A stretch of DNA of 64,000 nt. Source: Idiomarina fontislapidosi (lineage in GTDB: Bacteria; Pseudomonadota; Gammaproteobacteria; Enterobacterales; Alteromonadaceae). The notes beneath the pieces were generated by a model, which had not been told where the DNA came from, ran no database searches, and worked only from the letters and a program-made list of their open reading frames with translations. A program made the position numbers and the translations under genes. Where the stretch lies: the NCBI RefSeq assembly GCF_003226255.1, contig NZ_QJST01000013.1, positions 1 to 64,000 on the forward strand. Reading direction: 5' to 3'. This document shows positions 1 to 16,526 of the stretch, in pieces; positions within the stretch are counted from its first letter, which is position 1, and each line of letters opens with the position of its first letter.

Positions 1-95
1 CCGCACGACTCACTCAATGATATGACACCGTTTGAGTACCGAACTGCGGCATAAATATTCTATGAGATGACTGTGTTATAAATGGGATATTTACA
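1..95 (+). mobile_element. 3' end of an IS3-family insertion sequence
   Basis: Reading frame 1 from the first base gives a C-terminal tail PHDSLNDMTPFEYRTAA followed by a stop at 52-54. The PH-SL-x-x-x-TP-x-E/Y pattern is the usual C-terminus of IS3-family OrfB (DDE) transposases. The right end of the IS probably lies near 95, where the sequence ends in TTTACA; IS3-family termini commonly end in CA. The tniQ-like frame resumes immediately after. The exact IS border is inferred, as the left copy of the inverted repeat is outside the window. Confidence 0.7.
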
Positions 96-780
96 GAGGC
101 TTTCTTTTGTAACGGTTTGCACTCTACATTTCTGCCAACTGCTGGATTGCTGTCCACACTGCAAACAATCAATAGAGCCTCATAGACTCAAAAAGAAAAC
201 TTTAACGGAGTGTATGTATTGTCATCAGGACCTTACTACCGCACCATCAAAAAAAGCTAGCAGCAGGCTCCTAAATACAACCAATGAGCTAATTCAATCG
301 ATAGCCGCCCCTAATACAAATGCCCGGGATATTTTTCATCAGCTCGAGTTTTGGATAGCAGCCTTGCGGAAGTTATCGATTTCTAAGTCGACAACACACA
401 AAGCGATTTTCTCAGGACTTGTTGACGCCAAAGATCGCAAATTGATCTCATCCTGCCGAGGGGTAAACTTTAATTTTTTAACAGTCGAGAGCCGTTCAGT
501 TATCCTAAAGTACTGTAACATTGGCAATAGCGATTTATTGACTCAAGAGCTCTCCAGGCTCTCGTCACAAGGCCTAAGCTCGTCTTTTATGACCTCGCTG
601 TTAACGATTCCACCATTAACAGTATTGAACTTCTTGGGGTTAACATGGCCTCCTGAGTCGAATACCAAACGAGCCTGTCCACAAAACCCAATAACTATTA
701 AAAAAGCACCTCGTCCGCGCCCCTTGGTAGAAAAAAGCTGGGAGCTCCTACTCAGGAAGCATAGCCTTGGAAAACTCTAA
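82..780 (+). pseudogene. TniQ/TnsD-like target-selection protein, 5' end lost
   Basis: The first recognisable segment reads RLSFVTVCTLHFCQLLDCCPHC and continues with a second CMYC knuckle. This is the zinc-finger signature of TniQ/TnsD proteins (aromatic/basic residues, V-C-x-x-H, then L-x-x-x-C-P-x-C). TniQ proteins choose the attachment site for Tn7-like transposons and recruit the TnsC-type ATPase. The usual N-terminal part (about 100 residues or more) is missing, because an IS3-type element ends right in front of the motif. The ATG at 82 would therefore lie inside the IS and is probably not a native start. The rest (about 170 residues) is helical and unrecognised. The gene ends 14 bases inside the next gene, suggesting the two were translated together before the IS arrived. 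Confidence 0.6.
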
Positions 781-2161
781 CGAAAAACACTGCGATCAAT
801 GCGGCCGATTTGTGGACCGTATTACTCGGCATTATCGAGAAGAAAGTTACTGCCTCAACTGCTACTTGCGATGCTTCCCACATTCGGTATGCAGTGAATG
901 CAACAAACAGAAGAGAATTCATTACAGTGATAAAAAGCGTATATGCTGTAACTGCTACACGAAGGTAACACCCTGTGTGCGATGCAGGCGAACCGGGCGC
1001 CCGATCGGCAAAGTCGCATCAAGCGGGCCATTCTGCAATAGTTGCTATCGTTACCTACAAGAGCAGAAAAAATGCTCTCTTTGTGGAAAGATGGACGTCG
1101 TTTCACAAGGTTTATCTGTTGGGGTGGGCTCACTAATTTGTGACTCGTGTCGTGCAAGACTGCGCCCCAAGTGCCCTAAGTGCGGCATTCGCAGAAAGCT
1201 TTATGAAATCGATAGTGGAGCACTCATGTGCTACCGGTGTCGAGATAACATAAAATATTACTGTACCGGTTGTGACGTAGAGTTAACCGGTAAAGAAAAA
1301 ACGCTCTGTCATCTATGCAGCGCAAAACGCCTTAATAAGATTAGAAAGCATCAAAATGCTTTAAGCCTTAACACGCCGGGTTCAAGGAAACTGTTTATAG
1401 AGTTTGTGAACTGGTTAGAAAAAACTCGCAATTCTTTCGATGCTGCCCATAAGCAGAATCGCTACATCCTGTTTTTTCAAACAATTGAACCATTTCCTAA
1501 TGACTGGTACCTGACGCCCGGTTTCCTTACAAAAGTCGATGGCGGATATTTAAGACGTTCCGCCATGCCGCGACAATTCCTAGAAAGTAAAGGGGTCGTA
1601 TTTGACGAGAGGTTACTCGTCACCGCGATGGATTTACGAACAATTGATATGAATACGGCAATACTTGGGGAAACACGGCCATCTGTCCTTCAGGACGCTA
1701 TCCTTGAGTATATTTGCCTTAGAAAAAGTCAGCTTGAGGAAGGAAACATTAAAGCACGGACACTGCGTTTTGAAACATCAGCAATGAAAAACCTGATCGA
1801 TCACAACCGGTGGGCGAAAAGCCCACAGAAAGCGCTGGAAAGCCTATTAAGGGAAGCACCTGGGCTGCGTGCGTCAATATTTAAATTTGTCAGCTTCGCC
1901 CGAACAAACACCAACCTCGGAATGTTCATGCCTAAACTAAACACTGAAAGCGGAGTTGTTGCCGCTCTAAAGCGTTGCTTAAATAAGCCAAGCTCAAAAG
2001 CTTTCCGTGTATACACTTTCTTCGCACTTGACTACTTTCATGATTGTTATCTTCCAAGAAATGCAAAAATTCACATAAGGGAGGTGGGCGACGGCCTGGA
2101 AGTCACATTTAAAAGTCATACATTCTGGGTGCCATCCCCAACTCGTATTTTAAAAAAGTGA
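767..2161 (+). CDS. Multi-zinc-ribbon protein coupled to tniQ-like gene
   Basis: 464 residues, starting at TTG 767 behind AGGAAG (753-758); the start lies inside the end of the tniQ-like frame, so translational coupling is likely. The first ~195 residues hold twelve C-x-x-C knuckles (for example CDQC, CLNC, CSEC, CVRC, CSLC, CPKC, CTGC, CHLC), enough for about six zinc ribbons in a row. The remaining ~270 residues are mostly helical, basic, and carry no motif I recognise. Position directly after a TniQ-like gene suggests a DNA-binding partner in target choice or transposition, comparable in place to the poorly characterised tniE of Tn6022-type elements. That parallel is a guess from gene order; a plain nucleic-acid-binding cargo protein is the alternative. 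Confidence 0.6.
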   Translation: MENSNEKHCDQCGRFVDRITRHYREESYCLNCYLRCFPHSVCSECNKQKRIHYSDKKRICCNCYTKVTPCVRCRRTGRPIGKVASSGPFCNSCYRYLQEQKKCSLCGKMDVVSQGLSVGVGSLICDSCRARLRPKCPKCGIRRKLYEIDSGALMCYRCRDNIKYYCTGCDVELTGKEKTLCHLCSAKRLNKIRKHQNALSLNTPGSRKLFIEFVNWLEKTRNSFDAAHKQNRYILFFQTIEPFPNDWYLTPGFLTKVDGGYLRRSAMPRQFLESKGVVFDERLLVTAMDLRTIDMNTAILGETRPSVLQDAILEYICLRKSQLEEGNIKARTLRFETSAMKNLIDHNRWAKSPQKALESLLREAPGLRASIFKFVSFARTNTNLGMFMPKLNTESGVVAALKRCLNKPSSKAFRVYTFFALDYFHDCYLPRNAKIHIREVGDGLEVTFKSHTFWVPSPTRILKK

Positions 2162-2166
2162 TGCGA

Positions 2167-3891
2167 CTAGCTTGTGGTAATCCGTTTCAGTTTTCGATAA
2201 ATCTGATTTGCAATACCAGTCTCATCGCCTCTATGGGTTATCAAAGAAACACTACTACCAGCGATGCCAGTTGCTCTTTTCCAAACACCCTTAACGTCAA
2301 CGATGCCAGTTAATACTTGAGGTAACGCATCTAAAAAATCACTTGTCGAGGAAGCTTGGAAGATAGCAGTTCTAAACTTCTCATTATTAAACCTTTCAAT
2401 ACAAACAAAAAAGAAATTAATGTCTCTGAATGAGATCTGGAACACACCAAATCGCCTTTTGGGAAGACCAGTATAGATCTCTTTGTTTAAGCGCCGATGT
2501 TCTTTTCTGAAGAGCCAGTCATCATATAGTTCAGGCTCTACTAAAATGAGCTGCCCGGAGGTCAGTACACCGCTATAGAGCCCATTTAACGATGCAGGCT
2601 TAGACACTTTTGCGGATTTTTCGGCAGGCAATTGATTTAACGCCGACCATAATAAGTTCAGTGTATTCGGTAACTCTTTTTTCGGCTCATCATCCTCATG
2701 GATGAGGTTCAGCTTACCAACGTTCGGATTACCGCCTCTTTGATTACTTGGTAACACCTTACTTTCTGGAGTTGGTACTGGTTTGACTTGAGTGTTCTTT
2801 GTTTTATTTTCTTTTGGTACAGCTTTTTGAAGACCTGTTTCGCCCCAGTGCTCCATTTCACCTAATCGGAGATCCTCCCCCATAGAGCTTGATGAAGGTC
2901 TCGACTTTGAGGTTCCAATTAGCTTCTTACTCTTAGTCTTAGTCCGTTTTTTGCGCTTCTTTTCAGATTTATTCCCGTTTTCATCAGTGATATTACTATT
3001 CTCGCGAATAAGAAAGAAATCAGGACACTCCGGAAGCTTATACCTATGGATCTTTAAGGCCAGGAACCGTTCCCCTTTTACTAGCCAAATGCCAGACACA
3101 AGCCATTTGTGAGTTCCAGCGAACCAAGGGCGAACATTCAGATAAGTTGGTTTGTCGCGCTCTCGGTTCAATTGCGTGGATATATAATTTACCGTTCGTT
3201 GTGTGTATCGTTGTGACTTTAGACCCCAAACAAGGTAACGATCATCGTCATACACTTCTTTTGAGAGCCCTAGTTTGTATTCACCCTTTTGAGGAGTATT
3301 GCTGAAGTCAGTGGTATCAAACTTTTTGAATTCCAACTTTTCCAGCGCCACGTTTGCAAAGCTACCAAGGACCGTTTGCTGAAGAAACTGGGATGCCCCG
3401 TACGTATCATCAAAGACAGTTATAGAGTTCGCTAAAAGCTCGATGCCACATTTGGTGGTTACAGTAAAAAATTTTGTCCCTTTAAAGCTACCTGGGATCT
3501 GATATATATCCGGATGTAATATATAACGCTTGTGCTGACTTGCCTCAGGGCTACTGCTTTTGTCTTCCAGCTCCCAGGCGCTGACAAAGTTCCCTTTGCC
3601 TTGCGGATCAATTGTAAATTCAAATATGGTTTCAATTAAATCCGTGCGTTCACTATAGTACTCGCCATTTTTCCAAATACTGCCCTTTTCCAGCAACTTC
3701 GTATAGCTTTTAGCCACCTGAGCAAACTTGTATTCACCGCTTTCCGTGTTTTCCAGCAAAATATCAACCAAGGGTTCGTCAGAAGCTGCCTCATTCCAGG
3801 TTAATGCCCCATATTCCTTTACAAGCCACTCCTTGTCATCAACCGGGAGTCCTTCAATCTGTATGCTATCGGCCACAGCCTTACCTTCCAC
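2167..3891 (-). CDS. TnsE-like transposition protein (divergent)
   Basis: 574 residues, close to the length of Tn7 TnsE (about 540). From memory of that protein, two regions look alike: a middle block with a tryptophan/aromatic segment ending in a short strand and LP (here around residues 255-295), and a C-terminal block where a strand F-F-F-V-C-I-E is followed by an S/T-rich turn, a helix and G-x-W-x-R (about residues 490-545). Between them lies a long Lys/Arg/Ser-rich linker (about 310-410), also a TnsE trait. TnsE directs Tn7 to replicating and conjugating DNA through the sliding clamp. The start is GTG at 3891, with GTG 3876 (behind AAGG) as alternative. It faces the tniQ-side genes tail to tail and lies 68 bp after csrA. 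The assignment rests on weak similarity and needs a profile search. Confidence 0.5.
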   Translation of the reverse strand: MEGKAVADSIQIEGLPVDDKEWLVKEYGALTWNEAASDEPLVDILLENTESGEYKFAQVAKSYTKLLEKGSIWKNGEYYSERTDLIETIFEFTIDPQGKGNFVSAWELEDKSSSPEASQHKRYILHPDIYQIPGSFKGTKFFTVTTKCGIELLANSITVFDDTYGASQFLQQTVLGSFANVALEKLEFKKFDTTDFSNTPQKGEYKLGLSKEVYDDDRYLVWGLKSQRYTQRTVNYISTQLNRERDKPTYLNVRPWFAGTHKWLVSGIWLVKGERFLALKIHRYKLPECPDFFLIRENSNITDENGNKSEKKRKKRTKTKSKKLIGTSKSRPSSSSMGEDLRLGEMEHWGETGLQKAVPKENKTKNTQVKPVPTPESKVLPSNQRGGNPNVGKLNLIHEDDEPKKELPNTLNLLWSALNQLPAEKSAKVSKPASLNGLYSGVLTSGQLILVEPELYDDWLFRKEHRRLNKEIYTGLPKRRFGVFQISFRDINFFFVCIERFNNEKFRTAIFQASSTSDFLDALPQVLTGIVDVKGVWKRATGIAGSSVSLITHRGDETGIANQIYRKLKRITTS

Positions 3892-5107: not shown

Positions 5108-5983
5108 ATGACTAGCGAACTTTCAGGTTATCAGAAAGAATTATTAGCTCATATTGAGTTTATAGGTCGATTCTACGGAGTGGTATCTCGAGCTGACCTT
5201 GTAAAAAGATTCGATATAAGTGAGGCAAGCGCTACCCGTACATTCCAGCTTTACCATTCGATAGCTCCTGATAACCTAATTTACAGACCTAATATCAGAC
5301 GCTATGAATGGCAAGACAATGCATCACCTGTTATCGAAGTTTCTATCAATAAATGCCTTAGCACGTTAACTGATGGTTTCGGTGATAGCTTCGCACATGC
5401 CACGGATAACCCATTTGCAGTTAAAAATAGCTTATTCCATGTTAACTTGGACATCTTGGCCGGCATTACTAGAGCTATAAAACGAAAGTACCCAATAACC
5501 ATTAACTATCTATCCAAGTCATCCCCGCAAGGCGCTACAAGACAAATTGTACCTCATTCGATTGCAGATAGCGGACTTCGCTGGCACGTCAGGGCATTTG
5601 ACCGCAAGCGCAATGAGTTTCGTGATTTCGTAATTAACCGAGTTAGCGCATTATCTCCATGTAAGTCTCATGAGATTTTACCTCATGAAGAAAGAGCAGT
5701 TGATGACGCATGGAACACAATAGTAGAGCTCGAACTACAACCTCATCCTAGATTGGGGAAGGTCGCAACGATGATTGAGTTCGAATACCAGATGGTGTCT
5801 GGCATTCTAAAGAAGCGGATTAGACAAGCGTTAGCTGGGTATTTACTTGATAGCTGGAATATTGACTCATCACCAGATGCATCACTCACAGGACAGCATA
5901 TATTGCTACACCTAAAGAACAGCCAACAGCTAAACTTTTCTAGTAAACGTTTAGCTCCTGGTATACATGGCTACGGCGTTTAG
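5108..5983 (+). CDS. WYL-domain transcriptional regulator (BrxR/CapW type)
   Basis: 291 residues. Residues 1-70 form a winged helix-turn-helix (VVSRADLVKRFDISEASATRTFQ), residues ~130-190 a WYL domain with the typical end (LRWHVRAFDRKRNEFRDFVINRVSAL), and residues ~210-285 a WCX-like C-terminal extension. This order and length match BrxR, CapW and related regulators that repress phage-defence operons and release DNA on sensing a ligand. The gene lies on its own strand between the YegP pair and the DUF5131-TcmP pair, with which it converges. Its target is probably its own promoter and may include the neighbouring cargo. Ligand unknown. Confidence 0.85.
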   Translation: MTSELSGYQKELLAHIEFIGRFYGVVSRADLVKRFDISEASATRTFQLYHSIAPDNLIYRPNIRRYEWQDNASPVIEVSINKCLSTLTDGFGDSFAHATDNPFAVKNSLFHVNLDILAGITRAIKRKYPITINYLSKSSPQGATRQIVPHSIADSGLRWHVRAFDRKRNEFRDFVINRVSALSPCKSHEILPHEERAVDDAWNTIVELELQPHPRLGKVATMIEFEYQMVSGILKKRIRQALAGYLLDSWNIDSSPDASLTGQHILLHLKNSQQLNFSSKRLAPGIHGYGV

Positions 5984-6091: not shown

Positions 6092-7411
6092 TCATGTCTC
6101 TCTTTTAGGCGGAGAGGTCATTATTTTTAAATCGTCGAACGAAAAAAGGGACTGTTGTTGATAACTTAATATATCATTTGCTTTTACTTGTTTGGCTGTA
6201 CGTCTTGGAACTTTAGTTTCGTTATTTATTATTTTCACTTCTTTAAAGTTCATAAGGTTTTGCAAAGCCTCTTTTATCGAACCTTCTGTAGCTGCTGTTA
6301 AGTCTCCAATTTTAGCGAGAAGAGATTGGTAAGTTAATGGCTGATTGTTGTAGATGAACCTTGATAAGTCTTTGGTTAATGCGTTAACACATCTAAGTTG
6401 ACCATCCTTATCAAACTCCATTACATCATCAAACTCAAATGTAGCTTGTTTTGGCACCTTTGAAGCCTTAAAGCCTAGTCCGAACAGGCCATCACCTATC
6501 ACATGGCTAAACTTCCCATTAAACTTATTAGCAGAGTCCCAATGAATGTCCATCATTACCGAGCGAGCCTTATATTGCTTCGATAGGTGCACAAGCCAGT
6601 ACGACCAACCTTTCTTAGGTTCAATAAAAAATAGTGTCATATGATTAGCGCCAGACGCAGTTTTAATGGCAAGCGATAACTGTTCCTGTATAAGATGGTG
6701 CCAGAAGCCATTCCTCTTGAGCTCTTCCAACCTATTCCAGTCAATATAGGGCTCTAAACCAATACGCTTCATAGCGCTCCGGCTTTTTATATTATCAGAT
6801 AAAAAACTCTGTAAAGATTCAAAACCAAATGTTAACAATACCTCACTATTGTTTAGCTGAGTCATTACTTTTTTAATATACTGAAAAGGTACGTCTTTAT
6901 ACGCGAATTGATCGAGTACAAATAAGCAGCGTTGTGCTTTATTGCGCTCAGATATTTTTTTAATGATTTCATCAGCTACAGCATGGAATGAACTGTTATA
7001 TAAAAATAAATTTCTATTAAGTTTTTCTATATGTTGAGACTTGGCTATCTCACTAGTGAGAAACTGGAAGTATTCAGTGTTTTTTTCGACAAAGTAGTAT
7101 TCTGCTTGGACTTCTTTCGAACGCTCAAACTTAGTTTCAAGGTAAGCTTGAGCCTCTTGTACTGAGTTTAATATAAGAAATGGAGAGCCGCTTTCTATAC
7201 TATCATTCAAAATATTAGTGTATTTTCCACCGCCCGCAAAACCATCTACAATTGATATTTTTAACTTATCCCAAGCATAACCTGCCAGTAGCGTACAAAT
7301 GTATCGATGGATATATTCAGAAATAATAGAGTGCTTTACAATACTGTGCTCTTCTAATGGCGGAGGCGGGGCACCCTCAAGCCATGCGTACTTATCCTTT
7401 TTAGCTACCAC
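6092..7411 (-). CDS. tcmP: Three-Cys-motif partner protein TcmP (copy 1)
   Basis: 439 residues. TcmP proteins regularly neighbour proteins with a three-cysteine motif (DUF5131). Seen here: an N-terminal KH-x-I-I-x-EYI helix (about 26-35), a glycine loop VDGFAGGGKY (55-64) followed by SGSPF, a VEKN segment, and LDQFAYKDVP in place of the more usual DPFG motif. The glycine loop resembles the cofactor loop of Rossmann-type methyltransferases, but no methyltransferase catalytic motif follows. The C-terminal ~110 residues look like a winged helix (LTYQSLLAKIGDLTAATEGSIKEAL). It follows the DUF5131 gene by 31 bp in the same direction, so one operon. Function is unknown; this copy is the more divergent of the two on the island. 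Confidence 0.75.
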   Translation of the reverse strand: MVAKKDKYAWLEGAPPPPLEEHSIVKHSIISEYIHRYICTLLAGYAWDKLKISIVDGFAGGGKYTNILNDSIESGSPFLILNSVQEAQAYLETKFERSKEVQAEYYFVEKNTEYFQFLTSEIAKSQHIEKLNRNLFLYNSSFHAVADEIIKKISERNKAQRCLFVLDQFAYKDVPFQYIKKVMTQLNNSEVLLTFGFESLQSFLSDNIKSRSAMKRIGLEPYIDWNRLEELKRNGFWHHLIQEQLSLAIKTASGANHMTLFFIEPKKGWSYWLVHLSKQYKARSVMMDIHWDSANKFNGKFSHVIGDGLFGLGFKASKVPKQATFEFDDVMEFDKDGQLRCVNALTKDLSRFIYNNQPLTYQSLLAKIGDLTAATEGSIKEALQNLMNFKEVKIINNETKVPRRTAKQVKANDILSYQQQSLFSFDDLKIMTSPPKRET

Positions 7412-7442
7412 TATCTGAACTCTCCCTAGCCTTATAAAAGTG

Positions 7443-8198
7443 TCAAGAATATGATACCGCTGCGTCTATTCTTGGCATATCGTCCCATGTTTTTCCATTT
7501 AAAAGTCTGCCGTTGGCTTTTTTCGAACGTTTTTTACCATCAGCTCCCCAACCACCCCATTGCTTAAAGAAAAAAGCTATATTTTGTTCGTCGCACTGAA
7601 TTCTTATATTTTCCGCCCATTCCGGCTTCATTTCTCTTGCATTTGGGCCTGACTCACCACCTACGATTACCCAGTGGATATCGCTAAAGTCTACTTCACC
7701 TAAATCTTCTAAAAGCGGCTCTACTGATAAGAACCTAATGTTAGCATCAACCGAGCGAAGCTTTGCAATTCTCCGTAACCCCTGCTTTCGATTTTCAACT
7801 GTCACACCAAGCCATGCGTTCCGTGGAGCAGACTTATTGAAAAAATATTCAGCCATCCTATCAGCGCGTTTTGTGAGAATTTGATAGATATGCTGGGGAG
7901 TCCTCTCCATCACATCGAAGACTTTGTCGATATAAGAAAAAGGAACCTCTTCGTGAAATAGATCACTCATAGAGTTAACAAAATATTTTGTGGGTTTCTT
8001 CCTTTTTAAAGGCTGCTCTAATCTTTCTGGCAGTAAATTAAGTTTAAATCCATTTTCATAACCAGGAGTTCCCATAGCCTGTAGTCTTTGAGCCATAACT
8101 TCGGCATAACAATATTTGCACCCGGAGGATACTTTTGAACATCCAACCATCGGGTTCCAAGTTTGTTCGGTCCATTCAATTTTGCTTTTAGTACTCAT
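7443..8198 (-). CDS. DUF5131 (phage Gp37/Gp68) three-Cys-motif protein
   Basis: 251 residues starting IEWTEQTWNPMVGC. Cysteines 20, 27 and 30 form C-x6-C-x2-C followed by YA, resembling a radical-SAM iron-sulphur site but with a longer first gap than the canonical C-x3-C-x2-C. Further family blocks are present: FVNSMSDLFHE, Q-I-L-TKR, WLGVTVEN, RFLSVEPLLEDLG, WVIVGGESG and FFKQWGG. Full length for the family. The protein is common in phages and mobile islands and typically pairs with TcmP, as it does here (TcmP follows at 31 bp). Radical-SAM chemistry is a reasonable inference; substrate unknown. It is divergent from the Xre-type regulator. Confidence 0.9.
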   Translation of the reverse strand: MSTKSKIEWTEQTWNPMVGCSKVSSGCKYCYAEVMAQRLQAMGTPGYENGFKLNLLPERLEQPLKRKKPTKYFVNSMSDLFHEEVPFSYIDKVFDVMERTPQHIYQILTKRADRMAEYFFNKSAPRNAWLGVTVENRKQGLRRIAKLRSVDANIRFLSVEPLLEDLGEVDFSDIHWVIVGGESGPNAREMKPEWAENIRIQCDEQNIAFFFKQWGGWGADGKKRSKKANGRLLNGKTWDDMPRIDAAVSYS

Positions 8199-8247
8199 GG
8201 GCTCTCCAAAAACATTCCAAGTGTAATTTATCAGCCTAAGTCAATAC

Positions 8248-8277
8248 TTGCACAACTAGATTAAAAAACGATAACAT
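8248..8277 (+). promoter_or_regulatory. Candidate sigma-70 promoter of the Xre-type gene
   Basis: TTGCAC (8248-8253) and TAACAT (8272-8277) are 18 bases apart, 36 bases before the ATG at 8313, in the 114-base gap between divergent genes. The region is strongly AT-rich. Confidence 0.4.
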
Positions 8278-8312
8278 ATTATCTCATATTCCACATAAAA
8301 ATAAAATATGAA

Positions 8313-8636
8313 ATGAAAACTGTAAAAGAACAGTTAAGTAAATTAGTCAAACGAGACTTAGAAGAGGCAGGAAGCTACGATGAGTTATCTCAAAAAACCG
8401 GAATTAGCAGGTCTACTTTATTTAGAATAGCCAACCAAGAATGGCAAAGACCGGGAAGAGCTATAGAGGAGGCGGCCAAAAAGTATGATGTGCAACTTAG
8501 AAGTCAAAATGACGCAACGCAATGTGAACCGGTCTTAAAAGTGATATCTGAAATATGGGATGGTACAGATAAGCATGCCAAAGCTTTAGCTGACACGTTG
8601 AAAAAAGTACATACTTTAGCCCTTTATTCCAGATAG
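8313..8636 (+). CDS. Xre-type helix-turn-helix protein
   Basis: 107 residues with a helix-turn-helix at about 22-50 (SYDELSQKTGISRSTLFRIAN), followed by a helical tail. It is divergent from the DUF5131-TcmP operon and convergent with the second tcmP, placing it centrally in that block, so it is the natural candidate to regulate it through the shared 114-base gap. It shows no toxin-antitoxin partner. Not a recognised named regulator. Confidence 0.75.
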   Translation: MKTVKEQLSKLVKRDLEEAGSYDELSQKTGISRSTLFRIANQEWQRPGRAIEEAAKKYDVQLRSQNDATQCEPVLKVISEIWDGTDKHAKALADTLKKVHTLALYSR

Positions 8637-8654
8637 TATCGAGAACCAGTAGCA

Positions 8655-9797
8655 TTAGATCAGAGACATATTTTCAGTTAGAGCTTCGGGGGAAGACGGT
8701 TCCTTTTTAGGAAGTATCCTAAACTGAAAATTGTCGGGATATGTGAACTTTTTCTTTCGTTTATCGTTGATAGGCTCGATAAGGTTGTTTTTTTCCATGG
8801 GTTTTAAGACGTTCTTTTTTACTCCTCCAGTGGGAAAGCCTGTTCTATCTGAACCTATGTATTCCAAAATATCCGAGACCGTATAAATTAAGCCGTGTAA
8901 TCTTTCTTGGATTTGATTTATCAGAAGGCTGTAGTCTTTATCATAGCTATTGTTGAGCAACCCCCCATCATCCCCAACATACCTAAAAGAACCGTCTGGT
9001 ATAGCTTTCCAAATCGCGGCTTTCATTTTGTCCGATCCCTTCCAGTGGTTACTCGCAAAAAATATGGTATAGATCAGTTTATTACCACGATACAGATCAA
9101 AGTGAATCACTTGTGATGCACCACTTTTCTTTAATTGTTCCTTATACAATTCCACTAACTTTCTGTGTCTTACAGAGGAATCGTCAATATCTATAATCTC
9201 TTGCCAATTGTCGGTGCCAAAAAGAGCGTTTAGGTGGGGCTGAAACTCATTTTGTTTTTTAAAACGATTTAGATGCTCATACATTATCGAAATAAATATT
9301 TCGACTTTTGGTCGTCTTATTAAATTTTTAACAAGCTCCATAGGAGTATCAGAGACACCAAAGGGGTCAATCATAATAAAACATGATTTTTTGCCTGAAC
9401 ATGAATCGTAAGTTTGAAGCAGGTTAGTACATAAGTCTTGGTTGAATGACTCATTATGCACTTCGTATTTCAAACGTTTTTGACTACTTTTGTATTTACA
9501 GCTAACCAGCTGCTCTAAATGCATAAATCGTTCAGGGTGCTTCTCAACGAAGTGGTATGTGACATTTCCGCGTATAAGGTTTTTATAGCTATGCTCTTGA
9601 AATGCATCCAGCATTATCTGTGGAGATCCAGGTTCCCCTTGAGCATATTCCCCTGGTCCGGAAAAGCCATCTATGATGACTAGTTCATCACTCACTGTAC
9701 CCACAATCGGTAACCATGCATCTAAATATTCTTTTAATACGAGATGCTTACCTTTTGTATGTGGATCTAGAGCCCATAATTTTTTGCTATGTGCCAC
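8655..9797 (-). CDS. tcmP: Three-Cys-motif partner protein TcmP (copy 2)
   Basis: 380 residues and closer to the family consensus than copy 1: T-x-GKH-x-x-LKEYLDAWLPI (13-31), IIDGFSGPGEY (41-51) followed by GSP, HFVEKHPERF, IMIDPFGVSDTP (about 140) and a C-terminal winged-helix-like segment. The DGF-G-G loop suggests a Rossmann-type nucleotide or SAM-binding fold. No second DUF5131 gene accompanies it, so it either shares the DUF5131 partner 0.5 kb away across the Xre gene or acts alone. It diverges from the deaminase gene with only 93 bases between start codons. Function unknown. Confidence 0.85.
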   Translation of the reverse strand: MAHSKKLWALDPHTKGKHLVLKEYLDAWLPIVGTVSDELVIIDGFSGPGEYAQGEPGSPQIMLDAFQEHSYKNLIRGNVTYHFVEKHPERFMHLEQLVSCKYKSSQKRLKYEVHNESFNQDLCTNLLQTYDSCSGKKSCFIMIDPFGVSDTPMELVKNLIRRPKVEIFISIMYEHLNRFKKQNEFQPHLNALFGTDNWQEIIDIDDSSVRHRKLVELYKEQLKKSGASQVIHFDLYRGNKLIYTIFFASNHWKGSDKMKAAIWKAIPDGSFRYVGDDGGLLNNSYDKDYSLLINQIQERLHGLIYTVSDILEYIGSDRTGFPTGGVKKNVLKPMEKNNLIEPINDKRKKKFTYPDNFQFRILPKKEPSSPEALTENMSLI

Positions 9798-9890
9798 TAA
9801 ATTACCTTGAATGAAAAATCAATCAATGCAATAACATATATCCAATCTTATCTTATATCAACCAAATTTAAGTTTATAAAAGAGGCTCAT

Positions 9891-11444
9891 ATGCAGCAGC
9901 AGCTAGATGTGACTGGTCCAGAAGAGTATGAAAATGCGTTCCCGAGAAATGTCCCGAAATATGAAGATCGGCTATCTGATGAGTTAGTAATAGCTCTTGT
10001 GGGGCCAATCGCATCCGGTGTTACAGCTACAGCTAAGCTCCTGGAAGATCTACTTAGCTCAGAGTTTGATTACAAAGTTTTTAAGTATAAGCCAAGTGAT
10101 ATCATTAAAGATGATAGTAAAAATGTAGGTGATGAAATTGGCAAACCGGCAGACTTTGCAACTCGTATAGAGACCTATCAGACTGTTGGAGACAAGTTGA
10201 GGCAAAAATACGGAAACGGTTACCTTGCCAGTAAAATAGTATCTAAGATAGCTAAAAATAGAGATAATAATGACGGCTTCCAGGAGCCCGGGGATGGTAG
10301 CGAAAAACCAATTCCCAAGCAGAAGCGATGGGTTCATATTATTGATTCAATTAAACATCCTGAAGAGTTAAAAATACTGAAAAGGACTTACGGAGATATT
10401 CTTTGGTTATTCGGTGTATTTGCTCCTCTGCAGGTTAGAAAGGAAAGGCTGAAAGATCTGCAAGTATCTGATGTTAGTGCTACGAGCATTATAGATCGCG
10501 ATTATTCGGAAAGTCAGCGCCATGGACAGAAGGTAAAGGACGTATTTCATCAGTCTGACTTTTTCATTCGTAATGATACTCAAAGTAAAAACAATCTAGA
10601 ATTAGATGTCCAACGTTTTCTCGAAGTAATGTTTGGCTCTCCAAAAAGAACACCTACAAAGGATGAGTCGTCGATGTACTCAGCATATGCTGAGGCTTGT
10701 CGTTCTGCCTGTCTATCTCGACAAGTTGGTGCTGCAGTAGTTGATGAAGTTGGAAATTTAATAGGTTTAGGAAGAAATGATGTTCCAAAAGCAAATGGAG
10801 GTCTATATGAATCAGTCGAAACAAAAGCCTCTATTCGCGATTCAAGATGTTATGCGTGGAAAAACGGTGAGTGCCATAATGACGCAAGAAAGAATAAGCT
10901 GTATCGAGATATTTACGTGGAATTAGAAAAGCGAAAGGTTTTGCAGAAAGAGACTACTGAAGATGATGTGATCGACGCCGTGAAATCTACAGATGTTAAG
11001 TCTCTTATTGAATACTCAAGGGCTGTCCATGCTGAGATGGACGCTATCATTTCGATTGCAAGAACTAACAAGCCAGGGTTAATAGGAGCTACCCTTTACT
11101 GCACAACGTATCCATGCCACTCCTGTGCCAGGCACATTGTCGCAAGTGGCATAAAAAAGGTATTTTTTATCGAGCCATACCCAAAAAGTTTAGCTCAAGA
11201 CTTACATTCAGATGCTATCGATTCGACAGAGTCCTCTGACAAAGTTAACTTTCTTCAATACATGGGAGTAGCTCCCAAGAACATACTCAAATTATTTCGA
11301 ATTGAGAAAGGTCGTAAAAAGGATGGAAAGGTTGAGCCGTTTGATAAGAAAACTGCAAAACCAGTTGTTAGAGTATCACTCGATGACTATACTATGCATG
11401 AACGGTTAGAAGTTGCTCGACTGAGGCAAGGTAATGATGGATAA
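9891..11444 (+). CDS. Anti-phage deoxycytidylate deaminase (AvcD/DCD type)
   Basis: 517 residues from ATG 9891, chosen because AGAGG lies 5 bases upstream; an in-frame ATG at 9807 has no such site. The N-terminal ~250 residues are a P-loop kinase-like domain with a loop VGPIASGVTAT (37-47) in which the usual Walker A lysine position is valine. The C-terminal half is a zinc-dependent cytidine/dCMP deaminase with HAE (about 379-381) and PCHSC (about 408-412), and also a CYAWKNGEC insertion. This fused architecture defines the AvcD/DCD defence enzymes, which deaminate deoxycytidine nucleotides on phage infection and starve phage replication. In Vibrio an RNA (AvcI) encoded upstream holds AvcD inactive; here the upstream gap is too short for a full-size AvcI. 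A small gene overlaps the 3' end. Confidence 0.88.
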   Translation: MQQQLDVTGPEEYENAFPRNVPKYEDRLSDELVIALVGPIASGVTATAKLLEDLLSSEFDYKVFKYKPSDIIKDDSKNVGDEIGKPADFATRIETYQTVGDKLRQKYGNGYLASKIVSKIAKNRDNNDGFQEPGDGSEKPIPKQKRWVHIIDSIKHPEELKILKRTYGDILWLFGVFAPLQVRKERLKDLQVSDVSATSIIDRDYSESQRHGQKVKDVFHQSDFFIRNDTQSKNNLELDVQRFLEVMFGSPKRTPTKDESSMYSAYAEACRSACLSRQVGAAVVDEVGNLIGLGRNDVPKANGGLYESVETKASIRDSRCYAWKNGECHNDARKNKLYRDIYVELEKRKVLQKETTEDDVIDAVKSTDVKSLIEYSRAVHAEMDAIISIARTNKPGLIGATLYCTTYPCHSCARHIVASGIKKVFFIEPYPKSLAQDLHSDAIDSTESSDKVNFLQYMGVAPKNILKLFRIEKGRKKDGKVEPFDKKTAKPVVRVSLDDYTMHERLEVARLRQGNDG

Positions 11445-12186: not shown

Positions 12187-12474
12187 ATGAGAAATTTACT
12201 TTTACTGTTAACCCTTTTAATGGCTTTTGGTTTGGCACAGGCGGATAGCAGTAGTGATAAACATGGCGTAGCTCCCAGTATAGAAGCTTCGGCAGCAATT
12301 GATAACCAAACAAACTGCGCCTCGCCCGAGGGAATCTCATCTTCTGATAGTTTGCTAGCTGATTCCAAAAAATGCTGCAAAGTTTGCAAGAAAGGCAAAG
12401 CTTGCGGCGACTCCTGCATAGCTAAGAGCAAAACTTGCACCAAAGGCCCCGGCTGCGCCTGCAACGGCTATTAA
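12187..12474 (+). CDS. Small secreted cysteine-rich protein
   Basis: 95 residues with a clear signal peptide (MRNLLLLLTLLMAFGLAQA, cleavage after ~19-20). After a Ser/Ala-rich linker, the C-terminal 35 residues hold KKCCKVCKKGKACGDSC then C-x6-C-x3-C-x-C, a compact set of cysteines. I recognise the CCKVCKKGKACGDSC block from other small bacterial exported proteins, often beside secreted HNH nucleases; here such a nuclease gene follows. Likely disulphide-bonded or metal-binding in the periplasm or outside the cell. Start supported by CGAGG upstream. Role unknown. Confidence 0.7.
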   Translation: MRNLLLLLTLLMAFGLAQADSSSDKHGVAPSIEASAAIDNQTNCASPEGISSSDSLLADSKKCCKVCKKGKACGDSCIAKSKTCTKGPGCACNGY

Positions 12475-15542: not shown

Positions 15543-15585
15543 AGCGTCTATTTTGCGAATTTAGAATTTATTGTGCGAATTGACA
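15543..15585 (-). repeat. Transposon right terminus with tandem 20-bp repeats
   Basis: On the minus strand the end reads TGTCA, followed by two abutting 20-bp units, at 15582-15563 (CAATTCGCACAATAAATTCT) and 15562-15543 (AAATTCGCAAAATAGACGCT), matching at 14-15 of 20 positions. A third, inverted, partial copy (TTCGAATAAATT) starts at 15528. Tn7-like ends carry such arrays as binding sites for the TnsB transposase. The bases next to the end (15586-15590, AACCA) would be one copy of the 5-bp target duplication; the other copy is outside the window. Confidence 0.6.
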
Positions 15586-16441
15586 AACCACCACCGACCA
15601 ATGCCGCCGCCGAGCAGGTATGGTGCGGCATGCGCAAATTGCGTTGCGTGAGTTGTTGCGGCGTAAGGTGTGTCTCGACCAATGACTTAATACATGCGAT
15701 CTGCATGCCCTCATTATGAGTCGGGGTGGGGAGAATAGTTAGAAAGCGTTGCGCGAGCATTGTTTTACCGGTCCCAGGCGGCCCGACAAAGAGCAGGTGG
15801 TGACGACCTGCCGCGGCAATAAGTAGCGCCCGTTTCGCCTGTGTTTGTCCGATAATATCCGCGAGATCACCCACATCGTTGTCTTGCGACGAATGCGGCT
15901 TATCGTTTTCTGCGCCGCTGAGTTGATTGTGTCCCTGTAAATGCTCGAACAGTGCAGCCAAATCGGGCACTAAAAAGTGGTTCCCCTGCGCTGCATACCC
16001 TGCCTCGGCGGCATTAGTAGAGGGCACAAAAGCAGCACGGCCGGCACGCTTGCCGGCAATTAATGCGGGTATAAGACCAGACACCGCCTGCGTATTTCCG
16101 GCTAAAGCGAGCTCTCCGTAAAACTCGAATTGCGCCAGTTGACTCGCATCAAGCTGATCGGAAGCGGCAAGAATACCTACTGCAATAGCCAAGTCGAAAC
16201 GAGCGCCCTGCTTGGGTATTTCAGCCGGAGCCAAGTTGACGATAATGCGCGTTGCCGCGGGAAACTCGAGACCGACATTCAGAATCGCTGATTTTACACG
16301 ATCTCTCGCTTCTCTCACCGATGTCGCGGGCATTCCTACAATAGTGAAGGTCGGTAATCCGCGGGCGAGGTCAACTTCCACACGTACTTCGGGGGCTTCA
16401 ATACCAATACTGGCGCGGGTAAAAACAGTTGCAGTAGCCAT
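15548..16441 (-). pseudogene. comM: comM (yifB) 5' fragment interrupted by the transposon
   Basis: The frame starts at ATG 16441 (MATATVFTRA) and encodes the N-terminal Lon-protease-like domain, then the AAA+/Mg-chelatase-type ATPase with Walker A GPPGTGKT (GPPGTGKTMLAQR) and the MPHHTCSAAALVGGG block. After about 285 residues the homology stops at 15586 and the frame runs into transposon DNA, ending at 15548. A complete ComM has about 500 residues, so the second half of the ATPase and the C-terminal domain are lost. ComM is a branch-migration helicase that promotes integration of transforming DNA. The missing half should lie beyond the left edge of the island. Confidence 0.93.
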
Positions 16442-16526
16442 GCTCTCTCTCGCAAATAAGGAGAGCATAGCGATACACGGATAACTTTGATGTCAGCTCA
16501 AGCAGACTTCGTTGTCGACAGAGCGA

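Follow-up and report, generated by a model that had tools for sequence, protein, structure and literature searches.

The window analysed here, a stretch of 64,000 nucleotides from Idiomarina fontislapidosi, carries what we read as a mobile three-enzyme nucleic-acid-modifying module that most likely acts in defence against incoming DNA, an interpretation that we hold tentatively and place just short of an even chance. The initial annotation had described two different TcmP genes (439 and 380 aa), one DUF5131 gene and an Xre-type gene in between, and the four open reading frames were indeed found in this arrangement:

6092..7411, minus strand: TcmP1, class Q by motif and tree, 439 aa; TIGR04474 205.6 bits, PF22560 at residues 327-397
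7443..8198, minus strand: DUF5131 (Gp37/Gp68), radical-SAM-like, 251 aa; PF07505 367.6 bits, C-x6-C-x2-C
8281..8314, no strand: candidate operator, an inverted repeat in the divergent intergenic region, overlapping the HTH gene start
8313..8636, plus strand: small HTH (Xre-type) regulator, divergent from DUF5131, 107 aa; PHROG transcription regulators
8655..9797, minus strand: TcmP2, class P, 380 aa; TIGR04474 193.6 bits, RlmJ-like model

Both TcmP scores lie above the TIGR04474 cut-off of 53 bits (NCBIfam) and the DUF5131 score lies above the PF07505 gathering cut-off of 28.9 bits (Pfam). The TcmP proteins fall into two classes, which are defined by motif IV reading DQ (class Q) or DP (class P). 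TcmP1 has DGFAGGG as motif I and LDQF as motif IV, TcmP2 has DGFSGPG and IDPFG, respectively. This split of the two genes into classes was absent from the initial annotation. The Xre label is weak for the small window protein itself, which is without any Pfam match and matches a PHROG 'transcriptional regulator' (3.5e-7); its homologue in locus L004 passes HTH_3. Genes of the same HTH cluster (c7) are divergent from DUF5131 in 9 loci, window included, and the regulator beside DUF5131 is one of several types, the Xre gene among them. The candidate operator has arms of 10 nt that are 90% complementary and separated by a 14-nt gap; the arms are largely retained in Idiomarina abyssalis (locus L003), which argues weakly for an operator because the whole region is 88% identical there. 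The divergent small HTH protein would keep the DUF5131-TcmP1 unit repressed.

The layout is not due to chance, since it is collinear in I. abyssalis and since two TcmP genes lie beside DUF5131 in 49 of 80 genome loci, the closest ones retrieved with DUF5131. The double-TcmP arrangement, which the initial annotation had made a point on which its idea could fail, is thus conserved. All 49 of these loci combine one class-Q and one class-P gene, as do three plasmid loci and locus L205, and neither Q+Q nor P+P was found among the two-TcmP loci examined in genomes and plasmids. The Q+P genome loci span four layouts and four kinds of P partner, with 9 different pairings of layout with P subtype. Moreover, class Q forms one side of a tree branch with an SH-aLRT value of 93 when the motif columns are left out. 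Even sampling shows double loci to be in the minority (2/37), next to Q-only (8/37) and P-only loci (9/37), and in all 17 single-Q or single-P genomes checked that TcmP is the sole one. A Q+P heteromer is therefore not obligatory, because single-TcmP modules exist with no second TcmP in these genomes. Furthermore, 28 changes of partner state were counted on the DUF5131 tree. These changes, together with the Q-only and P-only loci, support an alternative in which two separate two-gene systems share one DUF5131 and each TcmP acts on its own substrate with no Q-P complex being formed. This is a serious possibility against which we lean only mildly, as the two-TcmP loci are always mixed and sharing alone does not require that. 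It could hold alongside each of the biological roles considered here. DUF5131 was found in 33 of 299 genomes, and all 22 above-cut-off TcmP matches in these genomes adjoin a DUF5131 gene.

Regarding TcmP, the SAM-binding Rossmann fold proposed initially agrees with the model of TcmP2 (pLDDT 90.3), the predicted fold of which is that of an RlmJ-like SAM methyltransferase. RlmJ and the DUF519 protein 2oo3 fill the first ten VIA rows, with Z 15.3-17.2, 206-215 aligned residues and an rmsd of 3.0-3.8, followed by Trm1 with Z 14.5, and RlmJ also comes first in Foldseek (1.1e-7). RlmJ is the 23S rRNA m6A2030 methyltransferase, in which the KH lysine, the motif I Asp and the motif IV Asp have known roles; all three residues are kept in 73/73 TcmP rows. 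E. coli RlmJ matches TIGR04474 weakly and below the cut-off (E 0.0012, 18.8 bits), a profile comparison gave a probability of 29% over 25 columns, and the TcmP alignment profile found no relative in the PDB. TcmP differs from RlmJ in motif IV, in which DPPY is replaced by DP[KYFM] in class P and by DQ in class Q. Moreover, SAM binding may be lacking in some P subunits, because Trp replaces a motif I Gly in 20/39 class-P rows. A further difference to RlmJ lies at the C-terminus: TcmP1 is predicted from its sequence to combine the RlmJ-like methyltransferase domain with a GMT-like winged helix (PF22560), and TcmP2 carries an extension, the helices and strands of which appear to follow the winged-helix order in the DSSP string of the model.

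DUF5131 had been suspected to be a radical SAM variant. This is supported by its match to Radical SAM mobile pair protein A (TIGR04471; 4.9e-31) and by a model (pLDDT 94.8) with a predicted radical SAM barrel fold that is spore-photoproduct-lyase-like. Spore photoproduct lyase accounts for the six best VIA rows (Z 13.7-13.9, 195-197 aligned), a viperin-like enzyme comes next with Z 11.4, and the 50 VIA rows are, except for a designed protein at rank 47, radical SAM enzymes by their titles or as otherwise known. Identity to spore photoproduct lyase is 13-14%, and the DUF5131 alignment profile found neither a relative nor a sequence-level match in the PDB. From the mobile pair A/B proteins (TIGR04471, TIGR04470) DUF5131 differs in scoring far below the cut-offs (107.9/355 and 17.1/410 bits) and in having a methyltransferase-like protein as partner here. 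C20-x6-C27-x2-C30 is invariant in 71 aligned DUF5131 rows, and this conservation suggests that the cysteines may bind a 4Fe-4S cluster and support SAM radical chemistry. The canonical radical SAM motif, also of spore photoproduct lyase, is C-x3-C-x2-C instead; the superfamily also includes members with other spacings. The lyase fold, together with S24 (LexA/UmuD-like) cluster genes located directly upstream and co-oriented in 28/160 loci (two members tested match PF00717), means that DNA repair or damage tolerance also fits: DUF5131 would reverse or alter a damaged base, the TcmP proteins would locate the lesion and damage would raise expression. We regard this as quite unlikely, given the patchy spread of DUF5131, the mobile context, the defence neighbours and the differing cysteine spacing; S24 repressors control prophages too, and no S24 gene lies beside the window copy.

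A Tn7-like element that has inserted into comM carries the module as cargo, which specifies the transposon noted initially: the element ends, the target duplication and the split comM were found in the window and on contig C9. The features of the element in the window, including cargo adjoining the module, are:

82..780, plus strand: probable 3' part of tniQ, 5' part at the edge of contig C9; no family match itself
767..2161, plus strand: zinc-ribbon protein after tniQ, its position would fit Orf3 of Tn6022
2167..3891, minus strand: 574-aa protein that by position may be TnsE-like
5108..5983, plus strand: WYL-domain regulator (PF13280, PADLOC WYL), adjoining cargo outside the module
9807..11444, plus strand: anti-phage dCTP deaminase (NF041025, 471 bits, cut-off 400), adjoining cargo
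15571..15585, no strand: transposon outer end, reading TGTCA inwards; matching end on contig C9
15586..15590, no strand: target duplication of 5 bp, read by eye, also present on contig C9 at the opposite end
15586..16468, minus strand: 5' part of comM, which the insertion interrupts; its 3' part continues from about C9:6945 (called ORF 6990-7628)

A TniQ match above the cut-off is located at C9:90-473, and by eye the 82..780 protein resembles the protein at 15889-16740 of L003. The 574-aa protein has no Pfam and no NCBIfam match, the TnsA-like match remains below the cut-off (72.3 of 110 bits), and tnsB and tnsC, which gave partial matches to other families, are named by order and length. With its comM target, tnsABC-like genes, tniQ and 5-bp duplication the element resembles the Tn6022/AbaR group of Tn7-like transposons, of which Tn6022 carries TniQ+Orf3; TnsE is almost universal in comM-targeting elements (PMC11406308, excerpt). 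It differs in that tniQ is interrupted at contig edges. As proposed initially, a WYL regulator and a deaminase flank the block. Their membership in it is not supported, as homologues were found in only 5/80 and 1/80 (L003) genome loci, respectively, and they are not counted with the module. Comparison with the L003 protein suggests that the deaminase probably starts at an ATG near 9891.

Related modules are found on Tn3-type and Tn7-type elements, plasmids and viral contigs, TcmP1 matches occur in 54 plasmid records, and a DUF5131 relative is present in 153 phage records; no TcmP was detected in 44/80 viral loci, some of which are incomplete. We found neither a nuclease nor a helicase or toxin in the module, and the family matches of its four genes (Pfam, NCBIfam, PADLOC) include no restriction-modification nuclease. 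An anti-phage effect would thus be without an obvious executor. The mobile and viral carriers and the lack of a nuclease would suit self-protection, in which the module marks the DNA of an element or prophage against host restriction. We consider such an anti-restriction role unlikely, since the neighbours are rich in defence genes and since defence systems are common cargo of Tn7-like elements (PMC8649781, excerpt).

The co-occurrence with defence genes, whose absence was to count against the initial annotation, is higher than in two control sets: at 1e-15, 99 neighbour proteins matched 136 PADLOC families, 96 integrase neighbours 21 and 99 random-place proteins 3. A further test, for N6-methylase genes, showed no linkage (0/32). 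The window genes themselves match both component kinds of the PADLOC candidates PDC-M30 and PDC-M41 (TcmP + DUF5131), DUF5131 matching PDC-M30B (5.3e-116) and PDC-M41B (1.4e-112), and TcmP2 (6.8e-45) and TcmP1 (1.3e-23) matching PDC-M30A. The names A and B suggest two genes, whereas in the window a single DUF5131 is accompanied by TcmP genes of two classes. The TcmP/DUF5131 pair is already a PADLOC candidate; the two-class Q+P rule and the fold assignments are new. An excerpt of one study reports PDC-M30 as predicted in 32 P. aeruginosa strains, 68.8% of them resistant (PMC10855318), and PDC-M30 is also named in PMC11878078. None of the literature matches listed gives a function for TcmP or DUF5131.

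In the preferred defence reading, the three cysteines of DUF5131 would hold a 4Fe-4S cluster and generate a 5'-deoxyadenosyl radical, which would act on a base inside the spore-photoproduct-lyase-like barrel. The C-terminal winged helices of the TcmP proteins would find the nucleic acid, presumably DNA, and their RlmJ-like domains would present or methylate the base, with one class-Q and one class-P subunit operating around the shared DUF5131. A bolder version, which we doubt, sees a tripartite hypermodification machine, in which a lyase-like radical SAM enzyme and a strictly mixed DQ/DP RlmJ-like pair, in the manner of METTL3-METTL14, were repeatedly assembled by partner exchange and would mark or disable invading DNA.

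Many genomes and plasmids carry genes annotated as TcmP or DUF5131, and the fold assignments together with the two-class pairing rule make these proteins testable enzymes with named residues. If they do modify DNA jointly, bacterial defence or self-protection would include an unfamiliar chemistry, spread by transposons, prophages and plasmids.

The initial annotation had placed two TcmP genes around a DUF5131 gene and an Xre-type gene, and the ORF calls put the four genes exactly in the stated place. The genes and the two cargo genes flanking them are:

5108-5983, plus strand, WYL regulator (flanking cargo)
6092-7411, minus strand, TcmP1
7443-8198, minus strand, DUF5131
8313-8636, plus strand, HTH gene
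8655-9797, minus strand, TcmP2
9807-11444, plus strand, dCTP deaminase (flanking cargo)

In profile searches TcmP1 and TcmP2 both passed TIGR04474 and DUF5131 passed PF07505; TcmP1 moreover carries a GMT-like winged helix (PF22560). The flanking WYL gene and deaminase were rejected as module components, homologues being present in five and one, respectively, of the best 80 of 569 DUF5131 relatives. A small cysteine-rich protein is encoded at 12187-12474, and a similar one, compared by eye, is found in the collinear locus of Idiomarina abyssalis (3415-3702).

The TcmP proteins fall into two classes according to the residue following the motif IV aspartate, which is glutamine in 34 class Q rows (TcmP1) and proline in 39 class P rows (TcmP2). 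As the classes were set by this motif, the split at alignment position 145 is a definition; independent support comes from a tree from which the motif columns were excluded, in which class Q forms one side of a branch with an SH-aLRT of 93 (quick search without bootstrap, with long-branch warnings). The best 80 of the 569 relatives, a sample skewed toward the window's own branch, comprise 48 loci with DQ and DP, 17 with DQ only, seven with DP only and seven with neither. One further locus, L024, came out of the script as 'DP+None'; inspected by eye, its short protein was read as DQ (LDQYGY) and the locus was counted as Q+P. The conserved double-TcmP arrangement that had been proposed was thereby recovered in 49 of these 80 loci, all 49 being mixed Q+P, and it is a minority form in an even genome sample (2/37). 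Copies below 240 aa were left unclassed, resulting in an undercount for L005, L015 and L049. Hidden P partners in the Q-only loci were rejected, as a neighbour profile search (>180 aa) gave a single gene, in L005, cut by the contig end.

The pairing extends over different gene orders. Leaving L024 (short Q gene) and L053 (DUF5131 ORF hidden by an overlapping ORF) out of the identity and layout counts, the remaining 47 genome loci and the window show four layouts, i.e., P-DUF-Q, DUF-Q-P with P in either direction, and Q-P-DUF, and four P subtypes, giving nine layout-subtype combinations in up to 29 genera. A sign test over these combinations gives p = 0.002, a rough value because the nine are not independent. 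Three plasmid loci (L238, L244, L245) and L205 from the even sample are mixed Q+P too. The 80 viral loci comprise 27 DP, seven DQ, two unclassed and 44 without detected TcmP, many of these being truncated. One might guess that Q and P act in one complex.

In the even sample, DUF5131 is encoded by 33 of 299 genomes of the phylum. The 37 loci pulled from 41 matches (all but the window itself and three matches that were partial or short) comprise two Q+P, eight Q only, nine P only, with L211 and L214 scored '?' and assigned P by eye, and 18 without detected TcmP, a count that may be too high because several contigs are short; L201, whose contig equals that of L054 in length, is probably the same record. 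TcmP passed the cut-off in 22 matches from 19 of the 299 genomes, and each match adjoins DUF5131 (listing without G297, a genome included in the following check); all 17 single-TcmP genomes checked carry one TcmP each. The double form is thus an elaboration of a simpler pair. Parsimony on a DUF5131 tree of 142 among 182 rows, with short flanks tolerated for single-P loci and for no others, counts 28 changes of partner state, and the starred branches force at least five changes for each state. Among Q+P loci the median pairwise identity is 72% for DUF5131, 37% for Q and 18% for P. DUF5131 is the steady enzyme and its partners are the fast-changing part.

Predicted single-chain models of TcmP2 and DUF5131 agree with the earlier proposal of a nucleotide- or SAM-binding Rossmann fold for TcmP and a radical-SAM-like DUF5131. 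The TcmP2 model is nearest to RlmJ, a 23S rRNA N6-adenine methyltransferase, followed by Trm1, and the lysine and the two aspartates of RlmJ are shared by 73 of 73 TcmP rows. The DUF5131 model is nearest to spore photoproduct lyase, followed by viperin-like enzymes. Its three putative cluster cysteines are its sole invariant cysteines; RlmN performs radical methylation by second-cysteine chemistry, which is thus not indicated here, and an RlmN/Cfr-type reaction was rejected. A division into active P and dead Q was likewise discarded: all 34 Q rows keep the lysine, both aspartates and glycines 47 and 49, and 20 of 39 P rows have tryptophan instead of glycine at position 49. The catalytic class was therefore left unassigned. 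PDB profile searches with both alignments gave chance-level rows only.

Upstream of DUF5131, relatives differ in their regulators. The HTH gene is divergent to DUF5131 across a 114-bp gap in the window, and this HTH type takes the same orientation in nine loci, the window counted. The imperfect inverted repeat at 8281-8314 in the gap is given little weight for its conservation, as the whole stretch is 88% identical in I. abyssalis. A co-oriented gene from an S24 (LexA/UmuD-like) cluster immediately precedes DUF5131 in 28 of 160 loci, with a 4-bp overlap in 11 of them; both cluster members tested matched PF00717. Examples are L012 (7366-8004) and L047 (7371-7964), and one S24 gene type starts with a G-A-G-R motif. 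Due to these genes some relatives may respond to DNA damage, which keeps alive the alternative that the module is a repair system in which DUF5131 reverses or alters a damaged base and TcmP locates the lesion.

The module's placement on a transposon was borne out. comM is interrupted at 15585/15586, with its other part on a second contig of the assembly (C9), both transposon ends read TGTCA inwards, and identical five bases flank the two ends (window 15571-15590; L088 6900-6960). On C9, gene order and partial matches point to tnsA, tnsB, tnsC and the 5' part of tniQ. The latter gene is split between the edges of the two contigs, and positions 1-53 of the window, inside tniQ, resemble the terminal part of an IS transposase. 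The carrier is consistent with the Tn6022/AbaR group of Tn7-like elements that target comM, as described in PMC11406308. In L014 comM breaks behind the same GGG as the window copy, a comM fragment starts at that VGGG in L054, a comM 3' fragment is present in L064 and a remnant lies next to an intact copy in L071, all of them adjoining the module or close to it, which suggests that such cargo entered comM more than once.

The proposed enrichment of defence genes held in part: there are more PADLOC matches than in two control sets, whereas none of 32 N6-methylase matches in 20 genomes lay on the module-bearing contig (several contigs being short), and a linked N6-methylase was rejected. At 1e-15, 136 PADLOC families matched among 99 case neighbours, versus 21 among 96 integrase neighbours and three among 99 random-place proteins; these are families, not distinct proteins, and overstate the contrast because many PADLOC models are redundant. 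Labels were listed for 25 of the 136, and the label mad3 alone matched four proteins of the random set. The scan covered 99 of 226 case genes, 96 of 136 integrase-neighbour genes and 99 of 138 genes from random places. A case locus had to have TcmP, with one locus taken per named genus and the c2 and c7 regulators removed; the controls were hand-picked (20 integrase loci among the matches listed, 20 random places), and the sets differ in species. At 1e-85 the case set retained 19 families with 11 labels, i.e., 12 proteins provided that each has a single label: type IIG and type III restriction, PglX, DrmD, GajA, GajB, DarG, type I specificity subunit, AbiEii, PDC-S05 and PDC-S19. The integrase set retained DpdF and PsyrT, so that the contrast is about 12 versus two proteins (Fisher p 0.01-0.03 for 10-12 versus two).

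Among the ten plasmid loci viewed, L241 has the sole annotated CBASS-like set, L244 and L245 carry restriction-like or DUF262 genes, VapC toxin genes occur in L244 and L246, and the others are dominated by genes for mobility, metal resistance or conjugation and by unnamed ones. On L241, a Sinorhizobium meliloti plasmid, the surroundings of TcmP also include an HD-domain gene and another radical SAM gene. PMC12445080 tabulates regulated genes of S. meliloti, among which the TcmP gene SMa2243 is listed next to the defence gene Hna. Of the viral DUF5131 genes (L135-L168 and further phage records) many belong to Gordonia and Mycobacterium phages, and TcmP was undetected in 33 of the 34 loci L135-L168, L137 having one; a TcmP2 scan of viral contigs gave no match. 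A literature search on DUF5131 returned no paper and one on the three-Cys-motif partner returned three, whole-word searches of the main text of PMC8649781 found no comM, yifB, three-Cys, Gp37, radical SAM or Idiomarina, and a word search of PMC10853773 found neither GMT nor RlmJ.

Taken together, the module is genuine and conserved, and it can be interpreted in enzymatic terms. It likely modifies nucleic acids, and a role in defence, for which it is already a PADLOC candidate, is plausible.
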